Shown here piece by piece: positions 11,407-41,708 of a stretch of DNA of 64,000 nucleotides. Position 1 is the stretch's first letter. Each line of letters opens with the position of its first letter. The notes beneath the pieces are model-generated. The model was not told the DNA's origin, made no database searches, and worked only from the letters and a program-made list of their open reading frames with translations. The stretch comes from Solwaraspora sp. WMMD791 (GTDB taxonomy: Bacteria; Actinomycetota; Actinomycetes; Mycobacteriales; Micromonosporaceae), in NCBI RefSeq assembly GCF_029581195.1, contig NZ_CP120737.1, positions 3,139,001 through 3,203,000 of the forward strand, given 5' to 3'. Made by a program: the position numbers and the translations under genes.

Positions 11407-12153
11407 GTGCCGACCGTCGACGACCCGGAGCCGGCCGGGCTGTGCTGGCTCACGCTGGTGGCGACCGACCGGGTCGCCGCGCTGCGCGACTTCGTCGCCG
11501 GCTGGTACGCCGACGTGCCGGCTCACCCGACTGCAACTGACGAGGCCGATCGGAGCGACGTCGCCGTACCGCCGCCGTTGCGCCAGTTCTACCGGGCCGC
11601 CGCCGGACGGGCGGTCGTGCACGGGGTGCAGAACGTCATCCGGCCGGTCGACCGGCTGGTCCCGGACGCCGACGGCTGGGTGAGCTTCGCCGACGAGAAC
11701 CAGGGCGCGTTCACCCTGCGGTACCGGCCAGGAGCCGTCGACCCGCCGGTGCGGTGCGACGACGGACGTACGGCAGGCGACGAGGCCGAGCCGCTGAGCG
11801 GCGTACTGCTGCAGTTCGTGCTCTCGGAGGCGGCGGTCGGCGCACCGGTCGGCGGATTCGGCTGGCTCGGACCGACCGCGCTGGGCCGGCTGACCTCTGC
11901 GCTGCGTACGGTGCCGCTCGCCCCGGCCGGTTGGCTCGGCGGACCGGTCAGCCTCCACGTCGGACCCGGCCTGGTGGTCGCCGTGGCGGCCGCCGACTCC
12001 GACGGCGACCACCACGTGTTCGTCGGTGCCCGCCACCGGCCGGCGTTGGACCGACTTCGCCCGCTCGACCTGCCGTGGGAGGAGCTCGACGCCCCGACAC
12101 CCACGGAACAGAACGACGCGGCCCGAGGTACGGCCGGGGTCACTCCTCGGTGA
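11407..12153 (+). CDS. SMI1/KNR4 (SUKH)-like protein
   Basis: The GTG at 11407 begins VPTVDDPEPAGLCWLTLVAT; earlier codons in the frame are Arg/Pro-rich and unlikely to be translated. The 248-residue product has features of SUKH-fold proteins: PPLRQFYRAAAG near residue 55, WVSFADENQGAFTLRY at about 97-112, then DPPVRC and a PLSGVLLQFVLSEA helix. SUKH proteins in bacteria are often immunity proteins against contact-dependent toxins, but many are solitary with unknown roles. No toxin gene is adjacent. Its last 14 bases overlap the convergent acyltransferase gene. The family call rests on motif resemblance only. Confidence 0.55.
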   Translation: MPTVDDPEPAGLCWLTLVATDRVAALRDFVAGWYADVPAHPTATDEADRSDVAVPPPLRQFYRAAAGRAVVHGVQNVIRPVDRLVPDADGWVSFADENQGAFTLRYRPGAVDPPVRCDDGRTAGDEAEPLSGVLLQFVLSEAAVGAPVGGFGWLGPTALGRLTSALRTVPLAPAGWLGGPVSLHVGPGLVVAVAAADSDGDHHVFVGARHRPALDRLRPLDLPWEELDAPTPTEQNDAARGTAGVTPR

Positions 12154-12784
12154 GCAGCCCGTCGTGTTCGACGTAGCGCTGCCCGGTCCGGGGGCAGACG
12201 AACCGGCCGGCACCGTCGGCGACCAGCGGTACGCCGGCCCGCCCGACCCAGCCGACCCGGCGCGCCGGCACCCCCACGACCAGCGCGAAGTCCGGTACGT
12301 CGCGGGTGACCACGGCACCGGCGGCGACGGTCGCCCAGCGGCCGATGTGCACCGGGGCGACGCAGACCGCCCGGGCACCGATCGCCGCACCGGTGCCGAC
12401 GGTGACGCCGACCGCAGTCCAGTCGTCGCCGGTCTTCAGCCGCCCGTCCGGGGTGACGGCGCGGGGGTACTCGTCGTTGGTGAGTACCGCCGCCGGGCCG
12501 ACGAACACCCCGTCGTCGAGCTGCGCCGGCTCGTACACCAGGGCGTAGTTCTGCAGTTTCACGTTGTCGCCCAGGCGGACCCCCGGCCCGACGTACGCCC
12601 CCCGGCCGATGATGCAGTCGCGGCCCACCCTCGCGTCCTCGCGGATCTGGGCCAGGTGCCAGACACGGGTGCCGGCACCGATGCGTGCCGCGTCGGCCAC
12701 GTCGGCGGAACCGGCGACGGTGACGCCCGGGTGTGGCCCGGAGCCGGCGTCGGCGGCGTCCCGGTCTGGTGTGGTGGCGGCCAT
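12140..12784 (-). CDS. Left-handed beta-helix N-acetyltransferase (WlbB/WbpD-like)
   Basis: A 214-residue hexapeptide-repeat transferase. Repeats run from about residue 20 to 180, with the subgroup hallmark RVWHLAQIREDARVGRDCII, KLQNYALVYEPAQLDDGVFVG and a TNDEYPRA loop. This pattern belongs to enzymes that acetylate the 3-amino group of UDP-2-acetamido-3-amino-2,3-dideoxy-hexuronic acids (WlbB/WbpD). That fits the dehydrogenase and aminotransferases encoded divergently next door. The C-terminal 25 residues include VCPRTGQRYVEHDG. The ATG has a GGGAGGA site about 10 bases upstream. It is the only minus-strand gene of the sugar block. Confidence 0.82.
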   Translation of the reverse strand: MAATTPDRDAADAGSGPHPGVTVAGSADVADAARIGAGTRVWHLAQIREDARVGRDCIIGRGAYVGPGVRLGDNVKLQNYALVYEPAQLDDGVFVGPAAVLTNDEYPRAVTPDGRLKTGDDWTAVGVTVGTGAAIGARAVCVAPVHIGRWATVAAGAVVTRDVPDFALVVGVPARRVGWVGRAGVPLVADGAGRFVCPRTGQRYVEHDGLLTEE

Positions 12785-13163: not shown

Positions 13164-14237
13164 GTGACTCATCCGCCTGCCACGCCGGACGAGCCCATCG
13201 GCGTAGCCGTCATCGGCGCCGGCTACTGGGGCCCCAACCTGGTCCGCAACTTCATGTCCAGCCCGGCGTTCCGGCTGCGCTGGCTCTGTGACCTCGATCT
13301 CGGCCGGGCCCGTACGGTGCTCGGCGACTACTCCACGATCGGCGCGACCGACGACCTGGCGCAGGTGCTCGCCGACGACGCGGTACGGGCCGTGGCGATC
13401 GCCACGCCCGCCGGCACCCACCTCGACGTCGCGTCCGCCGCGCTGCGCGCCGGCAAGCACGTGCTGGTCGAGAAGCCGCTCGCCGCCAACCACGCCGACG
13501 GCGCCGCCCTGGTCGCCGAGGCCGAGCAGCGCGGTCTGACGTTGATGTGCGACCACACCTACTGCTACACCCCGGCGGTGCTGCGGATCCGCGAGATGCT
13601 GCACGCCGGTGACCTGGGTGAGCTGCACTACCTCGACTCGGTACGGATCAACCTGGGCCTGGTGCAGCGCGACATCGACGTGATCTGGGACCTCGCCCCG
13701 CACGACCTGTCGATCCTCGATTTCATCCTGCCGCCGGGGGTACGCCCGGTGGCGGTCGCGGCGCACGGCGCCGACGGCATCGGCGCCGGCCGGGCCTGCG
13801 TGGCGTACCTCACGCTACGGCTGAGCACCGGTGCCATCGCCCACGTGCACGTCAACTGGCTCTCCCCGGTCAAGATCCGCACCACGATCGTCGGCGGGTC
13901 CAAGCGCACCCTGGTCTGGGACGACCTGAACCCGGGCCAGCGGCTGGCCCTGTTCGACCGGGGCGTCGACGTCGCCACCTCCGACGAGCTCGGCTCCGAG
14001 GCGCGCCGCGACATGCTGGTGTCGTACCGCTCCGGCGATATGGTCGCTCCGGCGCTGACCGAACGGGAAGCGCTGCGCACCATGGTCGAGGAGTACGCCC
14101 GCGCCATCCGTACCGGCACCCCCGCCCTCACCGACGGCCGCTCCGGCCTGCGGGTGCTGGCCATCCTGGAAGCCGCCACCCGCAGCCTCGCCGCCGGCGG
14201 CACGATGATCCCGCTGGACGAGGAGTCCGCCGCATGA
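13164..14237 (+). CDS. Gfo/Idh/MocA-family sugar-nucleotide dehydrogenase
   Basis: The GTG at 13164 gives 357 residues with the Rossmann motif VIGAGYWGPN right after a ten-residue leader; the open frame extends upstream but in non-conserved sequence. EKPLAANHADG (103-113) is the family catalytic-lysine motif, and DHTYCYTPAVLRIREML and WDLAPHDLSILDF follow. Members close to this type oxidise the 3-position of UDP-HexNAc or its uronic acid, making the 3-keto sugar that a DegT aminotransferase aminates. Its stop overlaps the next start (ATGA), starting a five-gene translationally coupled operon. Confidence 0.85.
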   Translation: MTHPPATPDEPIGVAVIGAGYWGPNLVRNFMSSPAFRLRWLCDLDLGRARTVLGDYSTIGATDDLAQVLADDAVRAVAIATPAGTHLDVASAALRAGKHVLVEKPLAANHADGAALVAEAEQRGLTLMCDHTYCYTPAVLRIREMLHAGDLGELHYLDSVRINLGLVQRDIDVIWDLAPHDLSILDFILPPGVRPVAVAAHGADGIGAGRACVAYLTLRLSTGAIAHVHVNWLSPVKIRTTIVGGSKRTLVWDDLNPGQRLALFDRGVDVATSDELGSEARRDMLVSYRSGDMVAPALTEREALRTMVEEYARAIRTGTPALTDGRSGLRVLAILEAATRSLAAGGTMIPLDEESAA

Positions 14238-15277
14238 CCGCCGCATCCTCCGCCGCCACCGCCCCGGCGGTCGACCTGGCCAACGCCACCGTCCTGGTGA
14301 CCGGCGGTGCCGGCTTCATCGGCTCGCACCTGGCCGAGCATCTCGTCTGTCTCGGGGCACGGGTCGTGGTGCTGGACAACTTCCGCAACGGCACCCGGGA
14401 GAATCTGGCGTTCCCCGGTGCGGAGTCGATGCGGGTGATCGAGGGCGACATCTGCGACCCGCAGACCTGTGTCGACGCGATGACCGGTGTCGACGTCGTC
14501 TTCCACCTGGCCTGTCTCGGGGTACGCCACTCGCTGCACAGCCCGGTGGAGAACCACCAGGTCAACGCCCTCGGCACGCTCAACGTGCTGGAGGCGGCGC
14601 GGGCCGCCCAGGTGTCCCGGCTGCTGTACGTGTCGACCTCGGAGATCTACGGCCGGGCACTGGAGTTCCCGATCACCGAGGAGACCACCCCCTGGCCGTT
14701 GACCGTCTACGGCAGCAGCAAACTCGCCGGCGAGCACTACGCCCGCTCGTACCTGGAGTGCTGGGGGCTGCCGGTGGTCTGCGTCCGGCCGTTCAACAAC
14801 TACGGGCCGCGCTCGCACTTCGAGGGCGACTCCGGCGAGGTGATCCCCCGGTTCATCCTGCGGGCGCTGGCCGGGCAGCCGCCGGTGGTCTTCGGCGACG
14901 GCGGCGTCACCCGGGACTTCCTCTACGTGAAGGACTGCGTCGAGACGCTGGCCCGGGTCGCCGAGTCGACCGAACTGGTCGGCGAGGTGGTCAACCTCGG
15001 GTACGGCGAGGAGCTGACCATCGGCCTGCTGGCCGAGACCGTGCTGGCCGCCGTCGGCCGTACCGACCTGCGGCCGGTCTTCGAGGCACCGCGCCCGGCC
15101 GACGTGCCCCGGCTGTGGGTGGACACCTCCAAGCTGCGCAAGACCATCGACTTCGCGCCCCGGGTGTCGCTGGCCGAGGGGATCGGCCACACCCTCGAGT
15201 ACTTCCAGCGGTTGCTGCGCGAGCAGCCCGGTGCGCTGGAGCGGATGCAGACGAAGAACTGGAGCCAGCCGGCATGA
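14234..15277 (+). CDS. NAD-dependent epimerase/dehydratase (extended SDR)
   Basis: A 347-residue extended SDR acting on a nucleotide sugar. It has TGGAGFIGSHLAEHL (23-37) for NAD binding, an Asp-initiated DNFRNGTRENL, VSTSEIYG, and the catalytic YGSSK (Tyr159, Lys163). PFNNYGPRSH and GVTRDFLYVKDC are typical of UDP-glucose 4-epimerase or dehydratase relatives; the precise reaction (epimerase or 4,6-dehydratase) is not settled by these motifs. Start and stop both overlap neighbours by four bases, so it is co-translated with the dehydrogenase and the aminotransferase. Confidence 0.85.
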   Translation: MTAASSAATAPAVDLANATVLVTGGAGFIGSHLAEHLVCLGARVVVLDNFRNGTRENLAFPGAESMRVIEGDICDPQTCVDAMTGVDVVFHLACLGVRHSLHSPVENHQVNALGTLNVLEAARAAQVSRLLYVSTSEIYGRALEFPITEETTPWPLTVYGSSKLAGEHYARSYLECWGLPVVCVRPFNNYGPRSHFEGDSGEVIPRFILRALAGQPPVVFGDGGVTRDFLYVKDCVETLARVAESTELVGEVVNLGYGEELTIGLLAETVLAAVGRTDLRPVFEAPRPADVPRLWVDTSKLRKTIDFAPRVSLAEGIGHTLEYFQRLLREQPGALERMQTKNWSQPA

Positions 15278-16422
15278 GCGAAACCGGTCCCCGCCGCATC
15301 CAGGTGATGCTGCCGATGCTCGGCGAGGAGGAGGAGCAGGCCGCCGCCGCGGCGATCCGCTCCGGCTGGGTGGCCCAGGGCCCCCGGGTGGCGCAGTTCG
15401 AACGCGAGTTCGCCGCCGCCGTCGGCGCCGACCACGGGGTCGCGGTCAGCTCCTGCACCACCGCACTGCACCTGGCGCTGGTGCTGCACGGCGTCGGCCC
15501 CGGCGACGAGGTCGTCGTGCCGTCGCTGTCGTTCATCGCCACCGCCAACGCGGTCCGCCACGCCGGTGCCGAGCCGGTCTTCGCCGACGTCGACCTGGCC
15601 ACCGGGAACCTGACCGTCGAGACGGTCGAGGCGGTCCGCACGCCGCGTACCCGGGCGGTGATCGCGGTCCACCAGGGCGGCGTGCCGTTCGACACGGTCG
15701 CGCTGCGTACGGCGGCCGCCGGCTGGGGCGTACCGCTGATCGAGGACGCCGCCTGCGCGGCCGGTTCCCGCGCGTACGGGCAGCCGGTGGGTGCCGGCGC
15801 GGCGATCTCGGCCTGGTCGTTCCACCCCCGCAAGGTGATCACCACCGGGGAGGGCGGCATGCTGACGCTGGACGACGCCGACGGTGCCGTCCGGCTGCGC
15901 CGGCTGCGCGAACACGGGATGAACGTCTCCGCCGCCGACCGGCACGCCAGCACCCAGCCGGTGCTGGAGGCGTACCTGGAGCCGGCGTTCAACTACCGAA
16001 TGACCGACATCCAGGCCGCGGTCGGCCTGGTCCAGGTGGGCCGGCTACCCGGTCTCATCGCCGGCCGCCGGGCGCTGGCCGCCCGCTACCACGCGCTGCT
16101 GGCCGACATCGACGGGCTGGTGCCGGTGGTCGACCCGGCGTACGGCGAGACCAGCTACCAGTCGTTCTGGGTGCGCATCGACCCGGCGTACGGGGTGGCC
16201 CGCGACGACGTACTGGCCGGGTTGGCCGACGCCGGGGTCTCCGCGCGGCGCGGCATCATGGCCGCCCACCTGGAGCCGGCGTACGCCCACCTCACCCCGG
16301 CCCCGCTGCCGGTGACCGAGCGGCTGACCCGCGACTCGCTGATCCTGCCGCTGCATCACGCACTCACCGAGGCCGACCAGGACCACATCGTCGCGGTGCT
16401 GCGCAAACTGGCCGGGCGATGA
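15274..16422 (+). CDS. DegT/DnrJ/EryC1/StrS aminotransferase (first copy)
   Basis: This 382-residue PLP enzyme transfers an amino group from glutamate to a keto sugar nucleotide. SSCTTALHLALVLHG (59-73) binds the phosphate, IEDAACAAGS holds the Asp that contacts the PLP nitrogen, and K187 in WSFHPRKVITTGEGGML is the Schiff-base lysine. The start at 15274 overlaps the previous stop as ATGA. The SFHPRKVITTGEGG version of the motif is typical of enzymes aminating the 4-keto position (PseC/PglE-like), whereas the second copy downstream has the other common form, so the two probably act at different carbons (inference). Confidence 0.88.
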   Translation: MSETGPRRIQVMLPMLGEEEEQAAAAAIRSGWVAQGPRVAQFEREFAAAVGADHGVAVSSCTTALHLALVLHGVGPGDEVVVPSLSFIATANAVRHAGAEPVFADVDLATGNLTVETVEAVRTPRTRAVIAVHQGGVPFDTVALRTAAAGWGVPLIEDAACAAGSRAYGQPVGAGAAISAWSFHPRKVITTGEGGMLTLDDADGAVRLRRLREHGMNVSAADRHASTQPVLEAYLEPAFNYRMTDIQAAVGLVQVGRLPGLIAGRRALAARYHALLADIDGLVPVVDPAYGETSYQSFWVRIDPAYGVARDDVLAGLADAGVSARRGIMAAHLEPAYAHLTPAPLPVTERLTRDSLILPLHHALTEADQDHIVAVLRKLAGR

Positions 16423-17150
16423 GGGACCTGCTGATCGTCGGTGCCGGCGGTTTCGCCCGGGAGACCGCCGCCGCCGTCGCGGCGGTCAACGCGGTGACGC
16501 CGACCTGGCGGCTGCGGGGCTTCCTCGACGACGACCCGGCGCTGCACGGCACCCGGCGGGTCGACGTACCGGTGATCGGCGGCACCGACCTGGTCGCCGA
16601 GCTGGCTGACGCGGCCGTGGTGGTCTGCGTCGGCAACCCCCGGAACTACCGGTCCCGGCAGCGGCTGGTCGACCGGTTCGGCCTGCCTGAGCAGCGGTAC
16701 GCCACCATCGTGCACCCGAGCGCCCGGGTCGGGGTCGGCTGCACCGTCGGCGCGGGCAGCGTGCTGCTGGCCGGGGTGGACCTGACCGCCGACGTCGCCG
16801 TCGGCGCGCACGTCGCGGTGATGCCGCAGGTGGTGCTGACCCACGACACGGTGATCGGGCCGTACGCCACGATCGCCTCCGGGGTGCGCCTCGGCGGCGG
16901 GGCGCGCCTCGGCGACGGCGTCTACGTCGGTGCCGGCGCGCTGCTGCGCGACGGTGTCTCCGTCGGTGCCTGGTCGCAGCTGGGCATGGGCGCGGTGGTG
17001 CTGCGCGACGTGCCCGCCGGTGAGGTGTGGGTCGGCGCGCCGGCCCGTTTCCTGCGCCCGGCCCACGGTCCGGCCGATCGCCCGGCCCACGGTCGCGTCG
17101 ACCGCCCGGCCGACCGAACGAACGAGTCCCAGTTGAGGAGTCCCGCGTGA
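16419..17150 (+). CDS. PglD/NeuD-like sugar O/N-acyltransferase
   Basis: A 243-residue transferase with the two-domain PglD plan: an N-terminal Rossmann-like nucleotide-sugar domain beginning DLLIVGAGGFARETAAAV, then a left-handed beta helix from about residue 95 (HPSARVGVGCTVGAGSVLL) with the catalytic His region VVLTHDTVIGPYATIASGV. Such enzymes acetylate the amine placed on the sugar by the preceding aminotransferase, here the gene directly upstream with ATGA overlap. The last 30 residues are a repetitive Pro/Arg/His-rich tail (HGPADRPAHGRVDRPADR) with no known role. A GTGA overlap couples it to the next gene. Confidence 0.85.
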   Translation: MRDLLIVGAGGFARETAAAVAAVNAVTPTWRLRGFLDDDPALHGTRRVDVPVIGGTDLVAELADAAVVVCVGNPRNYRSRQRLVDRFGLPEQRYATIVHPSARVGVGCTVGAGSVLLAGVDLTADVAVGAHVAVMPQVVLTHDTVIGPYATIASGVRLGGGARLGDGVYVGAGALLRDGVSVGAWSQLGMGAVVLRDVPAGEVWVGAPARFLRPAHGPADRPAHGRVDRPADRTNESQLRSPA

Positions 17151-18277
17151 GCAGCATCCCCCTCGTCGACCTGGCCGCCGCCCACGCCGAAGTGGCCGAG
17201 GAGGTCGACGCCGGCTTCAAACGGGTCATCGCCGGCACCGCGTTCATCGGCGGTGCCGAGGTCGCCGCCTTCGAGGCCGAGTACGCCGCATTCAGCGGCG
17301 TAGCGCACTGCGTCGGCGTGGCCAACGGCACCGACGCGCTGGAGCTGGCCCTGCGGGCGGTCGGGGTCGGGCCGGGCAGTGAGGTGATCCTGCCGGCCAA
17401 CACGTTCATCGCCACCGCCGAGGCCGTCGCCCGGGCCGGTGCCCGGGTGGTGCTGGTCGACTGCGATCCGGCGACGTACCTGATCGACGTCGACGCCGCG
17501 CTGGCCGCGGTCACCCCGGCGACCCGGGCGATCGCCCCGGTGCACCTGTACGGCCAGCTCGCCGACGTGCCCCGGCTGCGGGCCGGGCTCGCCAGCGTCT
17601 CCGCCACCGGGCAGGAGATCGCGATCGTCGAGGACGCCGCGCAGTGCCAGGGCGCCACCCGCCACGGCGTCGGCGCTGGTGCCGACGGGATCGCCGCCAC
17701 CAGCTTCTACCCGGGCAAGAACCTCGGCGCGTACGGCGACGCCGGGGCGGTGGTCACCGCCGACGCCGGACTCGCCGCCGACGTCCGGCGGATGTCGGCG
17801 CACGGCAGTGTCCGCAAGTACGTCCACGAGGTGGTCGGCTTCAACAGCCGCCTCGACGGGCTGCAGGCCGTGGTGCTGCGGGCCAAGCTTGCCCGGCTGG
17901 CCAGCGGCAACGACCGGCGCCGGGCGATCGCGGCCCGCTACGACACGCTGCTGGCCGACCTCGACGTGGTCCGCCCGGTGACGCTGGCCGGCAACGTGCA
18001 CGTCTGGCACATCTACTGCGTCCGGGTGCCCGGTGGGGCGCAGCGTCGCGACGCGGTCCTGGCCGCGATGAACGCGGCCGGAATCGGTGCCGCCATCCAC
18101 TACCCGGTGCCGGTGCACCTGACGCCGGCCTTCGCCGACCTCGGCTACCCGGCCGGGTCGTTCCCGCACGCCGAGTCGACCGCCCCGCAGCTGCTGTCGC
18201 TGCCGATCTACCCGCAGCTGACCGCGGCGCAGCAGGACCGGGTCGTCGAGGTGCTGGCCGCCGCGCTGGCAGCCTGA
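17147..18277 (+). CDS. DegT/DnrJ/EryC1/StrS aminotransferase (second copy, WbpE/WlbC-like)
   Basis: A 376-residue PLP aminotransferase starting at a GTG that overlaps the previous stop; TTGAGGAG upstream is a good ribosome site. It opens with IPLVDLAAAHAEVAEEV and carries FIGGAEVAAFEAEYAAF, GVANGTDALELALRA (57-71), VEDAAQCQGA and K191 in SFYPGKNLGAYGDAGAV. This form matches the 3-amino-transferring WbpE/WlbC/DesV/TylB group. With the Gfo/Idh/MocA dehydrogenase and the WlbB-like acetyltransferase it would complete 3-acetamido sugar formation. It ends the tightly coupled run; the transporter begins 14 bases later. Confidence 0.87.
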   Translation: MSSIPLVDLAAAHAEVAEEVDAGFKRVIAGTAFIGGAEVAAFEAEYAAFSGVAHCVGVANGTDALELALRAVGVGPGSEVILPANTFIATAEAVARAGARVVLVDCDPATYLIDVDAALAAVTPATRAIAPVHLYGQLADVPRLRAGLASVSATGQEIAIVEDAAQCQGATRHGVGAGADGIAATSFYPGKNLGAYGDAGAVVTADAGLAADVRRMSAHGSVRKYVHEVVGFNSRLDGLQAVVLRAKLARLASGNDRRRAIAARYDTLLADLDVVRPVTLAGNVHVWHIYCVRVPGGAQRRDAVLAAMNAAGIGAAIHYPVPVHLTPAFADLGYPAGSFPHAESTAPQLLSLPIYPQLTAAQQDRVVEVLAAALAA

Positions 18278-18291
18278 ACGGTTCACCGACC

Positions 18292-20582: not shown

Positions 20583-20614
20583 CCTACCGGCCCCTGGAGA
20601 GGAATCCGAATCCG

Positions 20615-21481
20615 ATGAAGCGGTTGGACATCATCACGCCGAGTTTCGCGCCTGACTTCGAGCTCTGCGCCGACCTGCACCGGTCGGTGCTGGCGTGCAC
20701 TCCCGATTCGGTACGGCAGCAGATCATCGTGCCGCAGCGCGATCTGGCACTGTTCGCGCAGTTGGCCGGGCCTCGGGTGCAGGTGCATCCGGTGGCCGAG
20801 TTCCTGCCCCGGTCGCTGGTGGCGGTACCGGGCGTGAACGGCTGGGTGAACCTGCGCCGGCCGTTTCCGCCGCTGCGGGGATGGATCACCCAGCAGATCG
20901 TGAAGTTGGCGGCCGCCGCCCGTTCCGACGCGGACGTGGTGCTGCTGGTCGATTCGGACATCGAGTTCGTCAGGCCGTTCGACGCTGACGTGTTCTGCGC
21001 CGACGACGTGGTCCGGTTCTACCGCAAGCCGCACGAGATCGACCAGCGCCTACCGCGCCACGTTCGGTGGCACGAGGTGTCCCGTCAGCTGCTCGGTCTG
21101 CCGCCGCTGACGCAGCTGCCGCTGCCGGACTACATCTGCTGGCCGGCGCCGTGGGATCCCCGGTTGGTACGGGAACTGCTGAACCGGGTCGAGGAGGTCA
21201 CCGGCCGGCCCTGGCCGACGGCGATCGGGTCGCAGCTGCACTTCTCCGAGGAGATCCTGTACGGGGTGTACCTGGACGAGGTGGTGGGTGGCGCGGCGGT
21301 CAGCTATGCCACGGACGACATGCTTTGCCACGACTACTCGGCGGAGGAGCCGCTGGACGCGACGGGAATCCGCGCCTTCCTGGACGGGATCGGCCCGGCC
21401 GACATCGCGGTGATGATCTCGGCCAAGTCACGTACACCGATGGATGTCCGCCGCGCCGCGATGGCGGAGCTGGCCGGCTGA
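20615..21481 (+). CDS. DUF6492-like protein, putative glycosyltransferase-fold
   Basis: The ATG at 20615 starts the conserved part (MKRLDIITPSFAPDFELCAD); a GTG at 20579 would add 12 residues and overlap the previous stop, so either is possible. The 288-residue product has a GT-A-like order: an initial ITPSFAPDFE strand, a DVVLLVDSDIEFVRPFD segment with a DSD-type metal motif (about 110-114), then a C-terminal half with QLHFSEEILYGVYLDEV. It resembles the family labelled DUF6492 in actinobacteria. A nucleotide-sugar transferase role is plausible but unproven. It ends 36 bases from the convergent secreted-protein gene. Confidence 0.6.
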   Translation: MKRLDIITPSFAPDFELCADLHRSVLACTPDSVRQQIIVPQRDLALFAQLAGPRVQVHPVAEFLPRSLVAVPGVNGWVNLRRPFPPLRGWITQQIVKLAAAARSDADVVLLVDSDIEFVRPFDADVFCADDVVRFYRKPHEIDQRLPRHVRWHEVSRQLLGLPPLTQLPLPDYICWPAPWDPRLVRELLNRVEEVTGRPWPTAIGSQLHFSEEILYGVYLDEVVGGAAVSYATDDMLCHDYSAEEPLDATGIRAFLDGIGPADIAVMISAKSRTPMDVRRAAMAELAG

Positions 21482-33511: not shown

Positions 33512-34888
33512 TCACCCCACGCGACCAAGCCATGGCGCCGAGGTACGAACCTGCCGCTTCGGGTGCGTGAATCGCCACACAGTGCCACAAAGCCCGAGCA
33601 TCAACGAAAGGACCATGACATAACTGCTGAAACTGAACGAGTCAAAGGTCACCCCGACGAACATGCCAACCAGCTGTGCCGCGACCAGTGCGGCACAGAG
33701 GTGCCGGTCGGCGTACGTGGTCGACCGGCGCATCGCGATCAGCGCCAGAACGACCCCGGTGAGGTGCAGCGCGGCCAGCATGCCCACACCCACCAGGCCG
33801 TTGGTCAACGCGGTCGCCAGCCACTGGTTGTCGAGGTACTGATACTGCGGCCACACCCAGGTGCCGGTCCCTCGACCGAACCACGGGCGCTGCGCGAAGT
33901 AGTAGTTCACCATCTCGTACCGCTTGGTTCGAGCCGTGATGCTCGGATCGTCGGCGGCACCGGCGAACATCCCGTTGATCGTGCTCCACACCGCCGGTTT
34001 CGCCACGATCATCGCAGCGACCATGCAGGTGCCAAGGGCCAGTAGGTTGTACCGCATCCGCCAGCCCCAGATGGGTAGCATGACCAGGATGACGATCGCC
34101 AATCCGATGAACCCGGTCCGCGACATCGTCGCAGGTACGGCCGCCGCGACACACAGCGCCGCCACGGCGAACAACTGGCGACGTAGCCGGGTGTCGGAGA
34201 AGACCGCGAAGTGGATTGCAAACGGCAACGCGATCGCCATGATCGTGCTGAATTCGATGTAGTGGGAGGTGGTGCTCGCCACCCGGATGCCCGAGCCTCT
34301 GATCTCCAACTCCGGCACCCAGCCCTTCGCCTCCAGGCCAGGCACCGTGATGAACTGGGTAACATCCATGTACAGAATGAACTGCAGCAACCCGATGACC
34401 GCCATCATGCTGCAGCACCAGACGAACACCTGCAGCACCGACTTCATCCTGGCCCAGTTCGGCAGCCCGTCGGCAGCCATCAGGATCACCCCGACGAACA
34501 CCGCGGCGCTCAACAACGCACGGTCGGCACTGTTCGCCTCGATCGTGGTCAGCCCTCGGAGCAGCCCGATCGGGTACGAAACGAGCATCGACATCAGATA
34601 GCCGAACACCGCCCACCGCATCGGCTGGGGGCCGAGCAGCACCAGTCGGGGGTTGAGCCGGGCCACCACCCACCAGACGAACAGCAGCATGCCGACGATC
34701 AGAGCCGGCCGCCCCAGGTCGGTCATGTTGGGCACGATCAGCCAGGCCGGGATCAGTGTCAGCAGGACGATCATGAGGCTGATCACCGTCGCGGCATCGA
34801 TCCGGGTGAACCGACGCCGCGTGATGTAGGTGCGGTCAGCGACCAGAGACGGCTCAAAGTCTGCCGGATGCACCGCCGGAGCGGTCAA
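33512..34888 (-). CDS. Wzy-like O-antigen polymerase/ligase family protein
   Basis: A 458-residue protein with about ten transmembrane helices. The large outer loop and the Wzy/WaaL-type motifs are recognisable: EIRGSGIRVASTTSHYIEFSTIM in the middle and TARTKRYEMVNYYFAQRPWFGRGTGTW in the late loop. The first 30 residues are cytoplasmic. It would polymerise flipped repeat units on the outer face. Its start overlaps the Wzz-like stop by four bases, an ordinary Wzz-Wzy pairing. No ligase-acceptor system (lipid A) exists in an actinomycete, so polymerase is the better reading. Confidence 0.83.
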   Translation of the reverse strand: MTAPAVHPADFEPSLVADRTYITRRRFTRIDAATVISLMIVLLTLIPAWLIVPNMTDLGRPALIVGMLLFVWWVVARLNPRLVLLGPQPMRWAVFGYLMSMLVSYPIGLLRGLTTIEANSADRALLSAAVFVGVILMAADGLPNWARMKSVLQVFVWCCSMMAVIGLLQFILYMDVTQFITVPGLEAKGWVPELEIRGSGIRVASTTSHYIEFSTIMAIALPFAIHFAVFSDTRLRRQLFAVAALCVAAAVPATMSRTGFIGLAIVILVMLPIWGWRMRYNLLALGTCMVAAMIVAKPAVWSTINGMFAGAADDPSITARTKRYEMVNYYFAQRPWFGRGTGTWVWPQYQYLDNQWLATALTNGLVGVGMLAALHLTGVVLALIAMRRSTTYADRHLCAALVAAQLVGMFVGVTFDSFSFSSYVMVLSLMLGLCGTVWRFTHPKRQVRTSAPWLGRVG

Positions 34889-36042
34889 TGGGGCTTGCTC
34901 CCGTTGCTCTTCGCGACCCAGCGGTCACCGGTCGCCCGGGGCAGCACCATCGTCGCGTCATCCGACTGGATCGCAATCACCGCGGTGTCGTCGGTGGCCG
35001 GCGTCCGATCGATGCGATCAGTCTGTGGCTCCGCGCCGCCCATGTTCGACCGGTACTCGTTGCCGGCCTTGCGTGGTCCCGGGACCGGGGTGCCAGCTGC
35101 CGGAACTCCGTCCGCGGCCCGCAACGGCCCACTCAGGCCCGCAGCACCAGGCAGCTCGGTCGCGAGGCCGACACCACGTTTCTCCGCAGGTCCTGCGGCC
35201 GCCGTGGTCTGGGGCGGCGTCGCTCCTACCGGCTGGCTGTGAGCGGACTGCCAACTCTTCGCGGAGACCGGCTCGGCGCTCTCGGCACGCTGGCCGTTCA
35301 TCGGCAGCGGTGTCGGGCGGCCGCTGGCAGCGACATCTGTCGTGTCCGTCCGCGACGCCGAACGATCAGCGACCCCGCCGCCCGGACCCTCGGTCGGATC
35401 GATCTCACCAGCCGCGATCGCCCTACGGCGGGCACGCCGGCGCAGCCAGGCGTCGATCGCTACGGTGATACCCGCGCTCAGCAGGACGCCGGCACCGGCG
35501 ATGGCGACAAGCGCCCGCTTGATCTTGGACGTCGACTCGGTGAGGTTGTCGCCCAGGTCGAGTCGTCGGGTGGTGATCGACTCGTCGCCGGACACTCCGT
35601 ACTCGCTCTGCAGCGCGGCGACGCTCTCACTGAAACGCCGGACCAGCTCCTCGGTGGTCTCGGTCGCCTGCTGTTCGGTGTCGCCGATCACCTCGAACGT
35701 GATCACCGGCAGCTGGGTGTCGAACCCGATGGTGAAGTTGGTGCTGTACCCGTCCTCTTCCAACTGGTCCAGCACCGTCTGATCCTGCACCGTGATGATC
35801 GCGGCCCGGCTGAGCGACCCCAAACCAAGATCGAACCATGGGTTCCGCGGTGCCGGGGCCGCGTCCGGGTCTTCCGGATCGGCTGTCGCGGTCGGTGGGA
35901 TCAGCTGTACGTAGCTGGTCGACACGTAGTCCGGCTGAATCGTGACGGCGACGACACCGGTACTGGCTGCGGCGAGGAGCAACAGCGGCGCGGCGATGTA
36001 CCACCGCCGAAACAACAGCTTGGTGAGGTCCCAAAAATCCAC
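34885..36042 (-). CDS. Wzz/chain-length determinant-like protein without kinase domain
   Basis: A 385-residue protein with the Wzz plan: an N-terminal DFWDLTKLLFRRWYIAAPLLLL segment entering helix 1 (about 14-36), an outer loop of about 135 residues containing YVSTSYVQLIPP and a coiled stretch (ATETTEELVRRFSESVAALQ), then helix 2 (about 174-196). It lacks the Walker motifs and Tyr cluster of BY-kinases; instead the last 185 residues are a disordered, Pro/Ala/Thr-rich cytoplasmic tail. It probably sets polymer length with the Wzy-like protein. The GTG start has AGAGGA six bases upstream. Confidence 0.8.
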   Translation of the reverse strand: MDFWDLTKLLFRRWYIAAPLLLLAAASTGVVAVTIQPDYVSTSYVQLIPPTATADPEDPDAAPAPRNPWFDLGLGSLSRAAIITVQDQTVLDQLEEDGYSTNFTIGFDTQLPVITFEVIGDTEQQATETTEELVRRFSESVAALQSEYGVSGDESITTRRLDLGDNLTESTSKIKRALVAIAGAGVLLSAGITVAIDAWLRRRARRRAIAAGEIDPTEGPGGGVADRSASRTDTTDVAASGRPTPLPMNGQRAESAEPVSAKSWQSAHSQPVGATPPQTTAAAGPAEKRGVGLATELPGAAGLSGPLRAADGVPAAGTPVPGPRKAGNEYRSNMGGAEPQTDRIDRTPATDDTAVIAIQSDDATMVLPRATGDRWVAKSNGSKPH

Positions 36043-36346: not shown

Positions 36347-36361
36347 CGGCGCTACTCTCCG

Positions 36362-38503
36362 TCAGGGAGTGATCTTGTAGATGTGGTAAGTGAACTCTTG
36401 GGAAAATCCGTCCTGGATCACCCCGTCCGCGATGGCGACGGTGCGGTTCTCGAACAGCACCTCCGCCTTGCTCGCGGACAGACCTGGCGGCAGTTTCAGC
36501 TGCTGAGGCCCGGTGGTGCCGTCACGGCCCAGCATGGCGAAGACGTAGTAGGAGCCGTCGTAGGCCTTCAGCATCGTGTCCAGCCGTGGGTTGAACTCCC
36601 ACTCGTACGACTGGGTGTTCAGTACCGGGGCGAGCGCGGTGACCCGCTTGTTGAGCTCGGTGACGGCCGGACGCACCGCCCGACCACAGGTGTCACGCAA
36701 CACGTGCTGGGAGATACAGGAGCCACCGAAGTTGTGGTTGAAGTAGAGGATCCCCCGTGCCTCGTGGATGAGGGAGTTCATCACCGCACCGGCGATCTGG
36801 TCACCGTTGATGGTCGGTGCGTCGTTCTCGGTGAACGGGTGGCCGACCTCGACGAACGCGTAGATCGGCTGCCGCTTGCCGTCCATCGCGTCGAGTTCAC
36901 GCATCCGGTCCATGGTCAGCCCGTAGTTCGCCGCCCGCCGGCAGGTGGCCGCCGTGACGCCCATGCTCGGTCCCTCCGAGGACGAGTAGCAGACGTTCGG
37001 GTCGGTGTACCAGTAGATGTCGTTGGAGATGATGTCGGTGTAGTTGTTCACGAACCGGGCCGCGTCGCCGTCCGACTGCCAGAACATGACGCCCTTGCCG
37101 TAGTTCGTGTACCTCATCCGGGTACGGTCCGGCAGCCGTTCGGTGAGCGTGTCCATGACGTCGAAGCCGCAGTCGTGCTTGTTGGGTGTGACGCAGGGAT
37201 GACCCTGACCTGGATACTTGCCGGTCCAGGTGCCATCGCCGGCACCACCCCACATGTCGACCTCGTCCTGCAGGATCCACCCGATGCTCTCGTCACCCTG
37301 ACCGCTGCGGCTGCCCATGGTCATCGCGGTCATTCCGTTACGCCGGATCAGTCCTAGATCAGACTGGTCGGTCAGCATCACGTAGGTGTTGAGGCCAACT
37401 TCCCGGTCCTTGTCGATCTCGCTCTGCGTGTAGACGCCTTCGTACCAGACGCCGATCGGGAAGAACGACGGGTTCGTCCAGCCGGAGGCCGTGGCATGCG
37501 GGAACGCCGCGTAGTAGGAGGGGCCACCTTCCCAACCGACCCGGGGCAAGTCCAGCGTCGGAGCGGTCGCGGTCGGTTGCGGCGCGACTGTCGGCGCGAT
37601 CGTCGGCGCGACGGTGGGAGCGACAGTCGGCGAGGCGCTGGGCGTCGGGATCGGCGATGCAGACGCGCTCGGGCCTGGCTCCGGGCGGCCAGGCCCGCGT
37701 GCTTTCTGGAACGTCAGGTCGACCCAGTAGTTGCTCGCCTCCCAGGTCTGCTCGGGAAACCCGCCCGACCCGTAGGCATAGACCCCGGCTGCGCCGACGG
37801 TAGTCAACGGACCCGCGCTGATCGGCTGGGCGAAGTACTGCTGACTCGCCCGGTAACGGGAGGTGTGATACGAGACCACGTACATTTCGCCAGCGACGAC
37901 ATCGACCGGCTTCGGCAGGGTGACCTGCTGCCAACCGGAGCGGGACTCCCTCGTCGGGATTGCCGACGCAAGACGCTTGCCGCGCGCGTTCCAGACGCTG
38001 ACCCGGTGTGCGCTGCGGTCGCCCTTGGCCTTGAGGAACCGGACCGAGGTGATCGTACCGTCGGCGCTCGAGGTGAACCGTAGTCCCAGCTCCACCGGTT
38101 TACTGTCCGGGTCGACCGCCACCTTGGACACGTCGCTGTCAGCGAAGAAGGTGTAGCCGTTCACCTGTTCGCCAGCGACCGAGGCGGTGACCACTGTCGC
38201 GGTAGCGAAGAAGCTGAGTACCACCGCGCCGATCAGCGCCAGCCGGCCCCGGCGACCGGTAGGGCGCCGTAGCACTCGCCGACGACCCTGCCCGGACCCG
38301 CTGGTGCTCGCATGCCGCGCGGTCGCCTCGGCCCCGGCGGTGCGCCGGGGCCGAGGCGACGGCCGACGGGACCGACGCGGCGCCGGGCGCGCGTCCCCAC
38401 GGGCGCGCGGCGACCCGGGTAAATCGGGCGAACTGTGCATGGACGATTTCGGGAACGATTCGTCCCGCCCCCCGTCCGTCTCGTAAGAATCCTTGCTCAC
38501 CAC
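36362..38503 (-). CDS. Membrane-anchored DUF4082 protein with unassigned glycosidase-like domain (long paralogue)
   Basis: Of two adjacent GTG codons, the one at 38501-38503 lies 10 bases after GAGAGG and is preferred (713 residues). Residues 1-87 are cytoplasmic and Arg/Pro-rich, 88-111 form a signal anchor (LALIGAVVLSFFATATVVTA), 115-266 are a DUF4082 module ending SNYWVDLTF, and 268-320 are a Pro/Thr/Ala linker with repeated PTVAPTIAPT. Residues 322-713 match the protein at 21518-22939: YYAAFPHATASG, FFPIGVWYEG, LNTYVMLTDQS, WILQDEVDMWGG, TNYGKGVMFWQSD, FVEVGHPFTEND and ARGILYFNHNFGG. The enzyme-like domain faces outward; DUF4082 probably holds it on the polymer (inference). Confidence 0.72.
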   Translation of the reverse strand: MVSKDSYETDGGRDESFPKSSMHSSPDLPGSPRARGDARPAPRRSRRPSPRPRRTAGAEATARHASTSGSGQGRRRVLRRPTGRRGRLALIGAVVLSFFATATVVTASVAGEQVNGYTFFADSDVSKVAVDPDSKPVELGLRFTSSADGTITSVRFLKAKGDRSAHRVSVWNARGKRLASAIPTRESRSGWQQVTLPKPVDVVAGEMYVVSYHTSRYRASQQYFAQPISAGPLTTVGAAGVYAYGSGGFPEQTWEASNYWVDLTFQKARGPGRPEPGPSASASPIPTPSASPTVAPTVAPTIAPTVAPQPTATAPTLDLPRVGWEGGPSYYAAFPHATASGWTNPSFFPIGVWYEGVYTQSEIDKDREVGLNTYVMLTDQSDLGLIRRNGMTAMTMGSRSGQGDESIGWILQDEVDMWGGAGDGTWTGKYPGQGHPCVTPNKHDCGFDVMDTLTERLPDRTRMRYTNYGKGVMFWQSDGDAARFVNNYTDIISNDIYWYTDPNVCYSSSEGPSMGVTAATCRRAANYGLTMDRMRELDAMDGKRQPIYAFVEVGHPFTENDAPTINGDQIAGAVMNSLIHEARGILYFNHNFGGSCISQHVLRDTCGRAVRPAVTELNKRVTALAPVLNTQSYEWEFNPRLDTMLKAYDGSYYVFAMLGRDGTTGPQQLKLPPGLSASKAEVLFENRTVAIADGVIQDGFSQEFTYHIYKITP
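38322..38360 (-). repeat. Perfect 18-bp hairpin inside the coding start of the DUF4082 anchor protein
   Basis: Arms 38322-38339 and 38343-38360 are perfectly complementary around a GTG loop, as strong as the terminators of this locus, yet the hairpin lies about 145-180 bases inside the gene (residues about 48-61). It encodes part of the Arg/Pro-rich cytoplasmic tail and could act as an intragenic attenuator. Confidence 0.75.
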
Positions 38504-38698
38504 GAGATGTACACCTCTCGGGACAAAGGTCCGTAGTCGGTATCGCGTTTGGTGGATCTCCCCCAGGCACTCCGACCCCGACGCCACGGCAGCGACCCAC
38601 GCCACCCGTTCAGGGCCGAGGCCGACGGTAGCCCAGCCCACAGACCTTCCCAAGGAACTTAATGCTCTCTTATGGCAACCTGGCAGGACGAAGATCAC

Positions 38699-38782
38699 TC
38701 ACCCGTTCATCGGCGAATGATGAGGTTTCTTCGCGGCAAGGATCGACGGATCGAGATCGTTGATCTTATCCTCGTCCGACAT
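38699..38782 (-). CDS. Possible 27-residue small protein
   Basis: An ATG at 38782 opens MSDEDKINDLDPSILAAKKP and stops after 27 codons. Its acidic, Ile/Asn/Lys-containing composition differs from the Arg/Gly/Pro-rich shadow frames nearby. The start lies within the last codons of the GT2 gene (17-base overlap), with GGTGGG upstream. It could be a real small protein of the operon or chance in a lower-GC gap. Confidence 0.25.
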   Translation of the reverse strand: MSDEDKINDLDPSILAAKKPHHSPMNG

Positions 38783-39695
38783 CGGAGCTACCCACCGTTG
38801 ACTGTGGATCATCAGTGGCGCCGCGGGGATTCGGTCCGCCGCCACCGGGGCGGCCCCAGCCGGACCGCTCGTTCCACCCAGGAGAACGACGCATGAACTC
38901 TGCGGCAACAGTGATCGTTACATAACAGAATGCCGCAGGAACAAGTCGGGGAGTCGTCAGCACCACTCGGCGCAACCACGACCACGGGCTGGATCCAGGC
39001 ACCGGATCGAGCGCAAGATCCGCGCCGCGCGGGTCGGTCCGGACGAAATGCCAGAATTCCGCATTGCCCGCCCGGGAGCGGGCCACCCGGCGGACAAGTT
39101 CGCCGGTACGGCGTGGAGCCACCACCCGTACGGGCAGGTCAACGTCGCGCTTCTCGGTCGACCGCACCACAGCGTCAAGAAACATGTCGTCGGCGATAAT
39201 GTCCGGAAAATTGGTGAATCGCGCACGTGCCTCGGCCGACAATGCGATCAGACCCCGGCCGAACAGTCGGCCACTGAAGACCGGCAGGCGCGAGTTGATC
39301 GCGTAGTAGGCACGCACCGGCCACGTGCTGCCCGACGCGTCGATCACCGGCCGGGGTGCCGCCGCCTCCACACCGGGTTCGGCGATCGCGGCCGCCAGCG
39401 CGCGCAGCAACTCGACCGGCGCGGCGATGTCGGCATCGAGATAGATCCGTACGTCTCCGTCGGCGATCGCGTCGGCTGCGTTCAGCGCGGCGATTTTGGA
39501 CGGAGTGGCGATCTCCAGGACCCGGACGCCGCAGGCGCGAGCAACCTCCGCCGTGCGGTCGCTGCAGCCGTTCGCGGCCACGATAATGTCGATGTCCGGC
39601 CCAAAGTGTGGAGATTCGGTCATTGCACGCAAGGCCGCGCCGATCCCCTCTTCCTCGTTGAAGGCCGGCATGATGACAGTAATCTGCACAGGCAC
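38766..39695 (-). CDS. Glycosyltransferase family 2
   Basis: The GTG at 39695 starts just before VQITVIMPAFNEEEGIGAALR; an ATG 17 codons upstream is possible, but GGAA lies at the right distance for the GTG. The 309-residue enzyme has IDIIVAANGCSDRTAEVA, the metal motif IYLDADIAAPVELL (about 83) and FPDIIADDMFLDAVVRS as the acceptor-base region. The C-terminal 60 residues include a hydrophobic stretch (VVLTTPRLVPAAFCYVTITVAA) suggesting membrane contact. It is divergent from the TagA/WecG-like gene, with a 15-base palindrome in the shared gap. Confidence 0.82.
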   Translation of the reverse strand: MPVQITVIMPAFNEEEGIGAALRAMTESPHFGPDIDIIVAANGCSDRTAEVARACGVRVLEIATPSKIAALNAADAIADGDVRIYLDADIAAPVELLRALAAAIAEPGVEAAAPRPVIDASGSTWPVRAYYAINSRLPVFSGRLFGRGLIALSAEARARFTNFPDIIADDMFLDAVVRSTEKRDVDLPVRVVAPRRTGELVRRVARSRAGNAEFWHFVRTDPRGADLALDPVPGSSPWSWLRRVVLTTPRLVPAAFCYVTITVAAEFMRRSPGWNERSGWGRPGGGGPNPRGATDDPQSTVGSSDVGRG

Positions 39696-39763
39696 GATGC
39701 TTCCATTTCTGGGGGATACGGCAACCAGTCGAATGGGCAACCTCACTATCGCCTAGCTGACAC

Positions 39764-39778: not shown

Positions 39779-39810
39779 TTGGACCATCCCGGCAAGTACC
39801 GTGTGCTGCT

Positions 39811-40722
39811 GTGCCCCATGACCAGGACACCATCACCCCAAATAGGCGCCGCATTACTCTGTGTGACGTCAGTTTCGATCACGTCCGCGAGCAGGACGTG
39901 GTCGACGAGGTGGTCACCGCGCTCGATGCTGGGCGGGGTGGGCAGATCATCACCCCGAACGTGGACATTCTGCGCCGCGCGAGCCGCGAACCGGAGTGCC
40001 GCAAACACGTAGAGTCATCAACTCTGGTGGTGGCGGACGGCGCCCCGCTGATCTGGGCCAGTCGCCTCCAGGGCGACCCGCTGCCGGCCCGGGTCCCCGG
40101 CTCCGACCTGATCTGGAGCCTGTCGGCCGCCCTCGGTGCCCGGGGCCGGTCGGTCTACCTGCTCGGCGGCGAGCCCGGCACCGCCGTACGGGCGGCCGAG
40201 GTGCTGCGCGCCGCGTTCCCGCAGCTGGTGATCGCTGGCGAGCTGAGCCCGCCGTTCGGGTTCGACACCTCCGAGGAGCAGCTCGCTGCGATCTGCGCCG
40301 AGGTGACCGCTGCCGCACCTGACCTGGTCTACGTCGGTCTCGGTTTCCCCAAGCAGGAGCGGCTGATCGCCCGGCTCCGTCCGCTGCTGCCCGGGACCTG
40401 GTTCATGGGCTGCGGTGCGGCGATCGGCTTCGTCGCCGGAGTGCACCGTCGCGCCCCGCGCTGGATGCAGCGCACCGGGTTGGAATGGGTGCACCGGCTG
40501 CTCGGCGAACCGCACCGTCTGATGCGCCGCTACCTGCTGCACGACGTACCGTTCGCGTTGCGGCTGCTCGGCGGTAGCGCCCGGAACCGGTTGCGGCCCG
40601 GCCGCCCGGCGGCGGAGGCACCGACGGAGGTCTCGGCCGCGCCGACCCGGCGGATCCCGGCCCCACGGGGCGGCCGGCGGCAGCGTCGGCCCGACACGGT
40701 GGGCACCGGGAGGCGGCGGTGA
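39811..40722 (+). CDS. TagA/WecG/CpsF-family glycosyltransferase (GT26)
   Basis: A 303-residue enzyme of the family that adds a hexosamine such as ManNAc to undecaprenyl-PP-GlcNAc as the second sugar. The conserved core is seen: IITPNVDILRRA (46-57), LVVADGAPLIWASRLQGDPLP with catalytic-type D76, RVPGSDLIWSL, SVYLLGGEPGTA, and DLVYVGLGFPKQERLIARLRP with GCGAAIGFVAG after it. The C-terminus (about 235-303) is basic and would lie on the membrane. Its role implies a lipid-linked first sugar made by an enzyme not encoded in this window. The GTG start has no clear ribosome site. Confidence 0.88.
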   Translation: MPHDQDTITPNRRRITLCDVSFDHVREQDVVDEVVTALDAGRGGQIITPNVDILRRASREPECRKHVESSTLVVADGAPLIWASRLQGDPLPARVPGSDLIWSLSAALGARGRSVYLLGGEPGTAVRAAEVLRAAFPQLVIAGELSPPFGFDTSEEQLAAICAEVTAAAPDLVYVGLGFPKQERLIARLRPLLPGTWFMGCGAAIGFVAGVHRRAPRWMQRTGLEWVHRLLGEPHRLMRRYLLHDVPFALRLLGGSARNRLRPGRPAAEAPTEVSAAPTRRIPAPRGGRRQRRPDTVGTGRRR

Positions 40723-41708
40723 GCCGCCCGGACGTCTCGGTCGTCATCGTCTCGTACAACACCCGCGAGCTGATCCTGCGCTGCCTGACCGAGCTGTACG
40801 CCAGCCTGGCCACCGCACCGTCGGTGTCGGTCACCGCCGAGGTGGTGGTCGTCGACAACGCCTCGACCGACGGGTCGGCCGACGCCGTCGCCGAACGGTT
40901 CCCCCAGGTCCGACTCGTCCGGCTCACCGACAACGTCGGGTTCGGCCGGGGCGTCAACCGGGGTGCGCTGGTCAGCTCCGGCCGCTACCTGCTCTGCCTC
41001 AACCCGGACACCGAGCCGGTCGGCAACCCGGTCGCCGCGCTGGTCGACTTCGCCGACCGGCACCCCGGCCATGGCATGTACACCGGCCGGACGCTGCGCC
41101 CGGACGGCACCGACGACAACTACTCGTGCTGGGGCCTACCGACGTTGTGGAGCACGGTCGGGTTCGCCACCGGGCTGTCGACCGTCCTGCGCGGCCGGGC
41201 CTGGGCGGATCCGGAAGGGCTGCCCAACTACGACCGGCGGACCGTCCGCGAGGTGCCGGCGCTGTCCGGCTGTCTGCTGCTGATCGAACGGGAGCTGTTC
41301 GGACGGCTCGGCGGCTTCGACCCGCGCTATTTCCTCTACAGCGAGGACATCGACCTGAGCACCCGGGCCCGGGCGCTCGGGGCCCGACCGGTGCTCACCC
41401 CGGACGCGCAGGTCGTCCACCTTGTCGGTGCCTCGTCCAGCTCCGAAGGGCAGCGCATCCGGTTGCTCCGCGGCCGGTCCACCTACCTGCGGCAACACTG
41501 GTCACCGACGCGCGCCCGGCTGGGGATCGGGTTGCTGACCGCCGGCGTCGGGCTCCGCGCGCTCGGCAGGACGCTGCTGGGCCGCGACCGGTCCCGGGGA
41601 GTCGATTGGGTCGACGTCTGGCGGTCCCGGGGCGACTGGGCACCCGGATATCCGCCCGTCGACGAGGACCGGCCGACCACCGAGCGGCTCGCCAGCGTCC
41701 CCCACTGA
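40719..41708 (+). CDS. Glycosyltransferase family 2 (rhamnosyltransferase WbbL-like)
   Basis: A 329-residue GT2 coupled to the preceding gene by GTGA overlap. VSVVIVSYNTRELILRCL (6-23), VVVVDNASTDGSADAVAERFP, VGFGRGVNRGALVSSGRYLLCLNPDTEP and SGCLLLIERELFGRLGGFDPRYFLYSEDIDLSTRA are the WbbL/rhamnosyltransferase signature series, with ED of YSEDIDL as base. The real donor sugar could still be something other than rhamnose, as no dTDP-rhamnose genes are in the window. It is the last gene of the polysaccharide locus; the convergent hydrolase gene follows after 72 bases. Confidence 0.85.
   Translation: MSRPDVSVVIVSYNTRELILRCLTELYASLATAPSVSVTAEVVVVDNASTDGSADAVAERFPQVRLVRLTDNVGFGRGVNRGALVSSGRYLLCLNPDTEPVGNPVAALVDFADRHPGHGMYTGRTLRPDGTDDNYSCWGLPTLWSTVGFATGLSTVLRGRAWADPEGLPNYDRRTVREVPALSGCLLLIERELFGRLGGFDPRYFLYSEDIDLSTRARALGARPVLTPDAQVVHLVGASSSSEGQRIRLLRGRSTYLRQHWSPTRARLGIGLLTAGVGLRALGRTLLGRDRSRGVDWVDVWRSRGDWAPGYPPVDEDRPTTERLASVPH

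Follow-up and report, generated by a model that had tools for sequence, protein, structure and literature searches.

We analysed a 64,000-nucleotide stretch (henceforth the window) of the single-contig 6.93 Mb genome of Solwaraspora sp. WMMD791, spanning bases 3139001-3203000, in which positions 12140-41708, judged by their gene content, are a Wzx/Wzy-type polysaccharide locus. The locus encodes an exported protein of 1290 amino acids (aa) that combines a domain of the dimethylformamidase (DMFase) type (DMFA2_C, here DMFA) with DUF4082 modules, and it is this enzyme-like protein, rather than DUF4082 alone, that forms the centre of the finding; its function is offered as a supported hypothesis. 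We assign a probability of roughly one half to the reading that it is an exported iron amidohydrolase, which would strip N-acyl groups from the polymer of the locus while being held there by DUF4082. According to this proposal, the polymer made by the locus would include an N-acylated amino sugar, and the locus would export its own tailoring enzymes. The 1290-aa protein would be a dimethylformamidase-type enzyme with a mononuclear iron site, acting outside the cell as an amidohydrolase that takes N-acyl (probably acetyl) groups off the amino sugar in the finished polymer to give free amines, and the DUF4082 modules would hold both this enzyme and a TIM-barrel protein on the polymer. Such a role would parallel that of the NodB/CE4-type deacetylases PgaB and PelA with their glycosidase partners, by means of an unrelated enzyme.

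The 1290-aa protein comprises, in order, a signal-peptide-like N-terminus, DMFA2_C, Big_7, DUF4082, Big_5, DUF4082, a Pro-rich linker and a third DUF4082, with Big_7 and Big_5 representing two Ig-like domains. A profile search was needed to reach its relatives, because a single-sequence phmmer search with the 1290-aa protein returned only Pro-rich low-complexity matches. A profile of 26 relatives run against the PDB recovered N-acetyl-(R)-beta-phenylalanine acylase (E 4.9e-16) and dimethylformamidase (E 1.5e-9). The predicted structure of the domain (pLDDT 89, pTM 0.92) again drew the acylase and DMFase in Foldseek searches, with best e-values of 3.6e-22 and 5.8e-20 and TMq of 0.60-0.70, the next match standing at E 2e-6 and TMq 0.17. 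In the part of its description available to us, DMFase binds Fe(III) through Y399, Y440 and E521, and its Y440A, E521A, H519A, N547A and E657A variants are inactive (PMC7686228). On alignment, Y399 (located by counting along the printed alignment), Y440 and E521 correspond to domain residues 156, 165 and 240 (Tyr217, Tyr226 and Glu301 of the protein), while H519 and N547 correspond to residues 238 and 266 (His299 and Asn327). The alignment output also lists the E521A and Y440A structures, and these differ exactly at the positions aligned with E521 and Y440. All 117 aligned domains have the same amino acid at residues 156, 165, 238, 240 and 378, and 116 of them have the Asn at 266; with sequences at least 98% alike removed, the corresponding figures are 113/113 and 112/113. 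Judged from these alignments and the model, the 1290-aa protein possesses a predicted DMFase-type domain with conserved iron-site residues. It resembles the DMFase large subunit and the acylase (PDB 6lvb, 8i5a) in predicted fold and in the aligned Tyr, Tyr, Glu, His and Asn, but differs from both in its signal-peptide-like start, its DUF4082 and Ig-like modules and its linkage to a polysaccharide locus. Given that the solved relatives cut amides, and one of them by name an N-acetyl group, N-acyl hydrolysis in the polymer would be the simplest reading.

An earlier, sequence-only reading of the window had proposed an exopolysaccharide locus with dedicated DUF4082 proteins, and this was borne out with corrections (gene content by Pfam and NCBIfam, frame limits, module distribution). 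In the locus, a nucleotide-sugar set of six genes is accompanied by genes for an MFS transporter, a propeller-like protein, a DUF6492 protein and six glycosyltransferases, as well as for Wzx, Wzy, a Wzz-like protein and the three exported proteins (Table 1). An uninterrupted minus-strand series of ten genes extends from 39746 down to 21518 and contains those for all three exported proteins along with those for Wzz, Wzy and Wzx.

DUF4082 was detected in 35 of 151 related genomes, representing 24 of 79 genera. Distances to Wzy_C were determined in 21 of these 35 genomes, picked for larger contigs, seven of which belong to one genus. DUF4082 clusters fell within 20 kb of Wzy_C in 21 of 28 cases against 0.60 expected, and each of the 21 genomes has at least one such cluster (17 within 10 kb). 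This check of DUF4082 placement relative to wzx/wzy, which had been suggested along with the original claim and was run here with wzy, indicates that the placement is not random. A comparison of 42 regions from 31 genomes, with a reach of about 20 kb and with gene calls, profiles and thresholds made for this analysis, refined the picture. At least three sugar genes or at least one of Wzx, Wzy and Wzz were present in 30 of 35 regions with DMFA (both in 26), as against one of the seven regions with DUF4082 only, a small group in which one region is covered on one side only. The counts remained the same on all six frames with a 100-bit floor. Thus, the proposed tie of DUF4082 to polysaccharide loci stands as regards non-random placement near wzy, but the association belongs to the DMFA2_C-DUF4082 fusion. 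DUF4082 alone was rejected as a locus marker, since six of the seven regions without DMFA have at most two sugar genes and lack any Wz gene. All 36 DMFA domains in the compared regions occur in proteins with DUF4082.

An orthologue of the Gfo/Idh/MocA oxidoreductase of the sugar set, defined at 59% identity or more (the next group lies at 45% or less), was found in 32 of the 151 genomes. It co-occurs with DUF4082 in 31 genomes, with four having DUF4082 only, one the orthologue only and 115 neither (Fisher 1e-26); the genus-level table reads 20 both, four DUF4082 only, none with the orthologue only and 55 neither (Fisher 4e-15). The orthologue lies within 20 kb of DUF4082 in 28 of 32 cases and within 25 kb in 30. 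In one relative (G030:C4:125083-126132) its gene contains one in-frame TGA. Median identity over regions is 62% for DMFA and 62% for Gfo/Idh (66 regions) as against 37% for Wzx (59 regions). Apparently the repeat unit is variable whereas the sugar and the enzyme are retained, as if the DMFA enzyme went with the sugar and not with the remainder of the repeat. Mirror-tree correlations, from overlapping sets with some genomes in both, were weak to moderate (r 0.20-0.40, the SDR value being reached in 8 of 500 permutations) and are not used as support.

When species genomes were scanned with the DMFA alignment, at least 590 stretches matched. Only the best 79 loci were kept, so that they represent the closest matches instead of a random sample. 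With a 100-bit floor, 43 of these best 79 loci had three or more of the six sugar genes within 10 kb, 43 had one or more of Wzx, Wzy and Wzz, and 60 had either (44, 44 and 61 without the floor). Thirteen of the 79 lie outside Actinomycetota, and at least three sugar genes accompany six of them, namely those of Rhizobacter, Nostoc linckia and metagenome-assembled genomes of Acidobacteria, Burkholderiales, Bryobacterales and Steroidobacteraceae. Among 396 genomes sampled from the phylum, that of the window included, DMFA was present in five, a close Gfo/Idh (at least 57% identity) in seven and both in four (Fisher 2e-7).

Several observations weigh against a de-N-acylase acting on the polymer of its own locus. 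The DMFA domain shares only 14-18% identity with the solved enzymes. Its invariant residue 378 (Glu439 of the protein) is weakly aligned to an acylase Glu, and the DMFase alignment ends before E657. DMFase further has a small subunit as partner. Five of the 35 DMFA regions sit apart from the sugar and Wz genes, and 19 of the best 79 loci have neither signal within 10 kb, although some contigs end sooner. Outside Actinomycetota the sugar set falls below three genes within 10 kb in seven of the 13 loci, and no Wzx, Wzy or Wzz match was obtained within 10 kb of any of them with profiles built on actinobacterial sequences, so that the link seen there is with the sugar genes and not with a Wzx/Wzy set (6/13 vs 0/13). 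In the 396-genome sample, one of the five DMFA genomes has no close Gfo/Idh and three genomes have the orthologue without DMFA. Furthermore, the co-occurrence counts are inflated by shared ancestry, and gene distance and co-inheritance are no proof of a shared substrate.

It is conceivable, if rather unlikely, that the 1290-aa protein is a working amidohydrolase directed at other targets, such as peptides, foreign N-acylated glycans or small amides, and that it lies in the locus since both surface functions are inherited together. The nearest solved relatives do act on small amides, and the five DMFA-DUF4082 regions standing apart from polysaccharide genes are in line with such a role. However, the close co-inheritance with one sugar pathway, kept in the six loci beyond Actinomycetota, and the presence of DUF4082 on another exported protein of the locus argue against this reading.

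The genome has four DUF4082 matches in all, each of them within this locus. The sequence-only reading had distributed four modules over three exported proteins; the three proteins and the four modules were recovered, but the modules are confined to two of them, the 473-aa protein having none. DUF4082 is thus common to the amidase-type and the TIM-barrel proteins of the locus, a distribution that would fit a module for one common ligand. A profile search of the PDB for solved relatives of DUF4082 gave weak repeat-driven matches only, and the literature searched, to the extent that its text was available, contained a single occurrence, as a label in a secretome table. Export of the three window proteins was judged by eye from hydrophobic N-terminal stretches, rather than with a predictor; by a crude rule, a hydrophobic stretch and an AxA-like motif precede the DMFA domain in 33 of 35 homologues. 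None of the 35 homologues of the DMFA-DUF4082 protein has a C-terminal membrane stretch or LPxTG, which makes retention by polymer binding plausible. The same absence, along with the several Ig-like and DUF4082 repeats and the Pro-rich linker, would also be compatible with a mainly structural or adhesive matrix protein, in which the amidase-like domain is inactive or serves for binding only. We regard this as improbable, given that the residues aligned with the iron site are invariant, as expected of an active enzyme. A transamidase that moves acyl groups or cross-links polymer chains or peptides via amide bonds would belong to the same chemistry class, with polymers bearing several acylated amines conceivably supplying donors and acceptors, but it is very improbable, as DMFase is described as a hydrolase in the available part of its account and the acylase is so named.

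Elsewhere, DUF4082 occurs in further contexts. Proteins near Wzy/Wzz carry it in two genomes of one other genus, and one of the two such proteins in each (L078:6349-8103 and L094:6435-8051) gives a weak match, under the cut-off, to a right-handed beta-helix. At L054:12767-17932 and L063:14601-19916, immediately next to a DMFA-DUF4082 gene, lie genes for DUF4082 proteins of very large size that also match Big_5 and purple-acid-phosphatase-N/fn3. A weak beta-helix match was also noted for L071:10864-11988, a member of a group (cluster 7) present in regions of nine genomes.

The TIM-barrel domain, here termed GHx, is C-terminal in the 778-aa protein and recurs in the 473-aa protein. In Foldseek searches its model resembles amylase- and GH30-type enzymes, with TMq of 0.40-0.51 among the matches listed. 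An alignment of 19 sequences, two of them from the window, revealed a DE(A/V)DMW motif whose Asp and Glu reach 90% conservation or more, together with an F(V/I)E motif in which the Glu is invariant. At the sequence level, Pfam did not recognise GHx in either protein, NCBIfam gave no match for the 473-aa protein, and the PDB gave no credible one. On the strength of the model we describe it as glycosidase-like. It is present in 15 of the 35 DMFA regions and in none of the seven without DMFA. The suggestion that domains attached to DUF4082 trim or modify the polymer is plausible in the light of the DMFase-type domain, this predicted barrel and the weak beta-helix match (two genomes, one other genus).

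The nucleotide-sugar set had been read as one for a 3-acetamido, and probably 4-acetamido, sugar. This is reasonable for a six-enzyme set whose first aminotransferase is nearest to TlmJ and ArnB, which we take to be C4-type enzymes, and whose second has among its nearest structures WbpE and QdtB, presumably of the C3 type; the locus sugar is probably aminated at C3 and C4. The Gfo/Idh/MocA protein has UDP-GlcNAc 3-dehydrogenase as its best NCBIfam match (128 bits, under the cut-off of 450). For the SDR protein a UXS-type decarboxylase was considered, but NCBIfam places LegB first (below cut-off) and the PDB matches are mixed; the sugar may accordingly be of either the 3,4-diamino or the 2,3,4-triamino type. 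Amino sugars of Psychrobacter, as given in the available part of PMC8040287, were used as a comparison only. The plus-strand frame 15231-17150 is not one gene by GC content by codon position, its first approximately 390 aa being out of frame; the real genes are 15274-16422 and 16419-17150. The MFS transporter and the propeller-like protein (18274-20582) both occur within 10 kb of DMFA-DUF4082 genes in 18 of the best 79 loci, sometimes with no sugar set in reach.

As regards polymer assembly, the at least six transferases claimed earlier are matched by six glycosyltransferases assigned by Pfam family, and the Wzx-like flippase and Wzy-like polymerase by PF13440 and PF04932 above cut-off. The Wzz-like protein is less clear-cut: three of five scanned homologues match PF02706, one of them above cut-off, but the window protein itself has no Pfam match. 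The window was said to hold no initiating phosphoglycosyltransferase, and indeed no match to PF02397 or PF00953, the two initiating families searched, was found there. Elsewhere in the genome there are four PF02397 matches as well as one strong PF00953 match and one below cut-off, and initiation is therefore probably served from outside the window. A family of about 500 aa is present in the regions of 11 related genomes, and the single member scanned is a PF02397 enzyme. The stretch immediately upstream of the locus (7991-11372) encodes a DivIVA-like coiled-coil protein (below cut-off) and, after it, a 733-aa protein with a sub-cut-off apolipoprotein-like match, and about 8.5 kb past the locus (50181-51101) lies a NodB-type polysaccharide deacetylase gene (PF01522, E 1e-21).

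Table 1. Features of the locus, in window positions
Feature	Positions	Strand	Basis
Hexapeptide (left-handed beta-helix) acetyltransferase, candidate 3-N-acetyltransferase (role inferred)	12140..12784	-	Pfam Hexapep E 3.7e-20
Gfo/Idh/MocA sugar oxidoreductase, candidate C3 dehydrogenase	13164..14237	+	Pfam; co-occurrence of orthologue with DUF4082
SDR nucleotide-sugar dehydratase/epimerase	14234..15277	+	Best NCBIfam match LegB, 216 bits, under cut-off 475
DegT aminotransferase 1	15274..16422	+	Pfam; nearest PDB structures
PglD/NeuD-type sugar N-acetyltransferase	16419..17150	+	TIGR03570 174 bits, over cut-off 160.8; Pfam
DegT aminotransferase 2	17147..18277 (start about)	+	Pfam; nearest PDB structures
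MFS transporter, recurrent neighbour	18274..19563	+	Pfam MFS_1; recurrence
TolB/propeller-like protein, hydrophobic N-terminus, recurrent neighbour	19563..20582	+	Weak PD40 match, below cut-off; recurrence
DUF6492 protein	20615..21481	+	Pfam
Exported 473-aa protein, GHx domain, no DUF4082	21518..22939	-	Paralogue of 36362-38698 domain
GT4-type glycosyltransferase	23093..24235	-	Pfam
GT2 glycosyltransferase	24232..25299	-	Pfam
Wzx-type flippase	25457..26992	-	PF13440 E 3.4e-52
Glycosyltransferase Glyco_trans_1_2 with TPR repeats	26985..29261	-	Pfam
Exported 1290-aa protein	29358..33230	-	Pfam; N-terminus read by eye
DUF4082 module 3 (1290-aa protein)	29388..29798	-	Pfam
DUF4082 module 2 (1290-aa protein)	30042..30464	-	Pfam
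DUF4082 module 1 (1290-aa protein)	30828..31256	-	Pfam
DMFase-type domain (PF20254, DMFA2_C)	31599..33047	-	Pfam E 1.2e-108; profile vs PDB; predicted fold
Wzy-type polymerase	33512..34888	-	Wzy_C PF04932 E 3.5e-13
Wzz-like chain-length protein	34885..36042	-	Homologues matching PF02706
Exported or membrane-anchored 778-aa protein: hydrophobic segment, DUF4082, TIM-barrel GHx	36362..38698	-	Pfam; predicted fold
GHx domain, predicted TIM barrel and beta-sandwich	36371..37549	-	Model pLDDT 85, pTM 0.89
DUF4082 module 4 (778-aa protein)	37721..38128	-	Pfam
GT2 glycosyltransferase	38766..39746	-	Pfam
WecG/TagA/CpsF glycosyltransferase	39811..40722	+	PF03808 E 1e-56
GT2 glycosyltransferase	40719..41708	+	Pfam

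Among known systems, Wzx/Wzy-dependent capsule and exopolysaccharide loci share with the window Wzx, Wzy, a Wzz-like protein, transferases and nucleotide-sugar genes, but the window is without a PF02397 or PF00953 initiating transferase. The imp cluster of Actinoplanes missouriensis, which in the available part of its description has seven genes (four glycosyltransferases and three membrane proteins) along with GimA/GimB, is likewise an actinomycete Wzx/Wzy-type matrix polysaccharide system with an adjoining glycosidase gene (PMC12691653). That part of the text does not mention DMFase-type, DUF4082 or amino-sugar genes, and it does not support the imp cluster as the same system (PMC12691653). 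PgaB and PelA, in the portions of their descriptions available, combine deacetylase and glycosidase activities on amino-sugar polymers; the likeness lies in the proposed extracytoplasmic N-deacylation of such a polymer and a glycosidase domain in the same system. The difference is that none of the three exported proteins of the window showed a polysaccharide deacetylase domain (PF01522) in a Pfam scan. No literature linking dimethylformamidase with polysaccharide and glycosyltransferase was found in a search that covered few subscription papers, and this is weak evidence of novelty.

At odds that we would put a little short of even, these proteins may be exopolysaccharide de-N-acylases that form a class of their own, use the iron centre of dimethylformamidase and are fused to DUF4082 as a novel carbohydrate-binding module. 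Such a class would be inherited together with a single amino-sugar pathway, in Actinomycetota as well as in some Acidobacteria, Proteobacteria and Cyanobacteria, and would be an iron-based counterpart of PgaB/PelA. If this is true, it would provide a function both for a widespread exported 'dimethylformamidase-like' family, to which the matching stretches counted above belong, and for DUF4082. It would also predict that these bacteria make an amino-sugar matrix polymer bearing free amines, and the deacetylation step that shapes biofilm polymers would gain a second chemistry.

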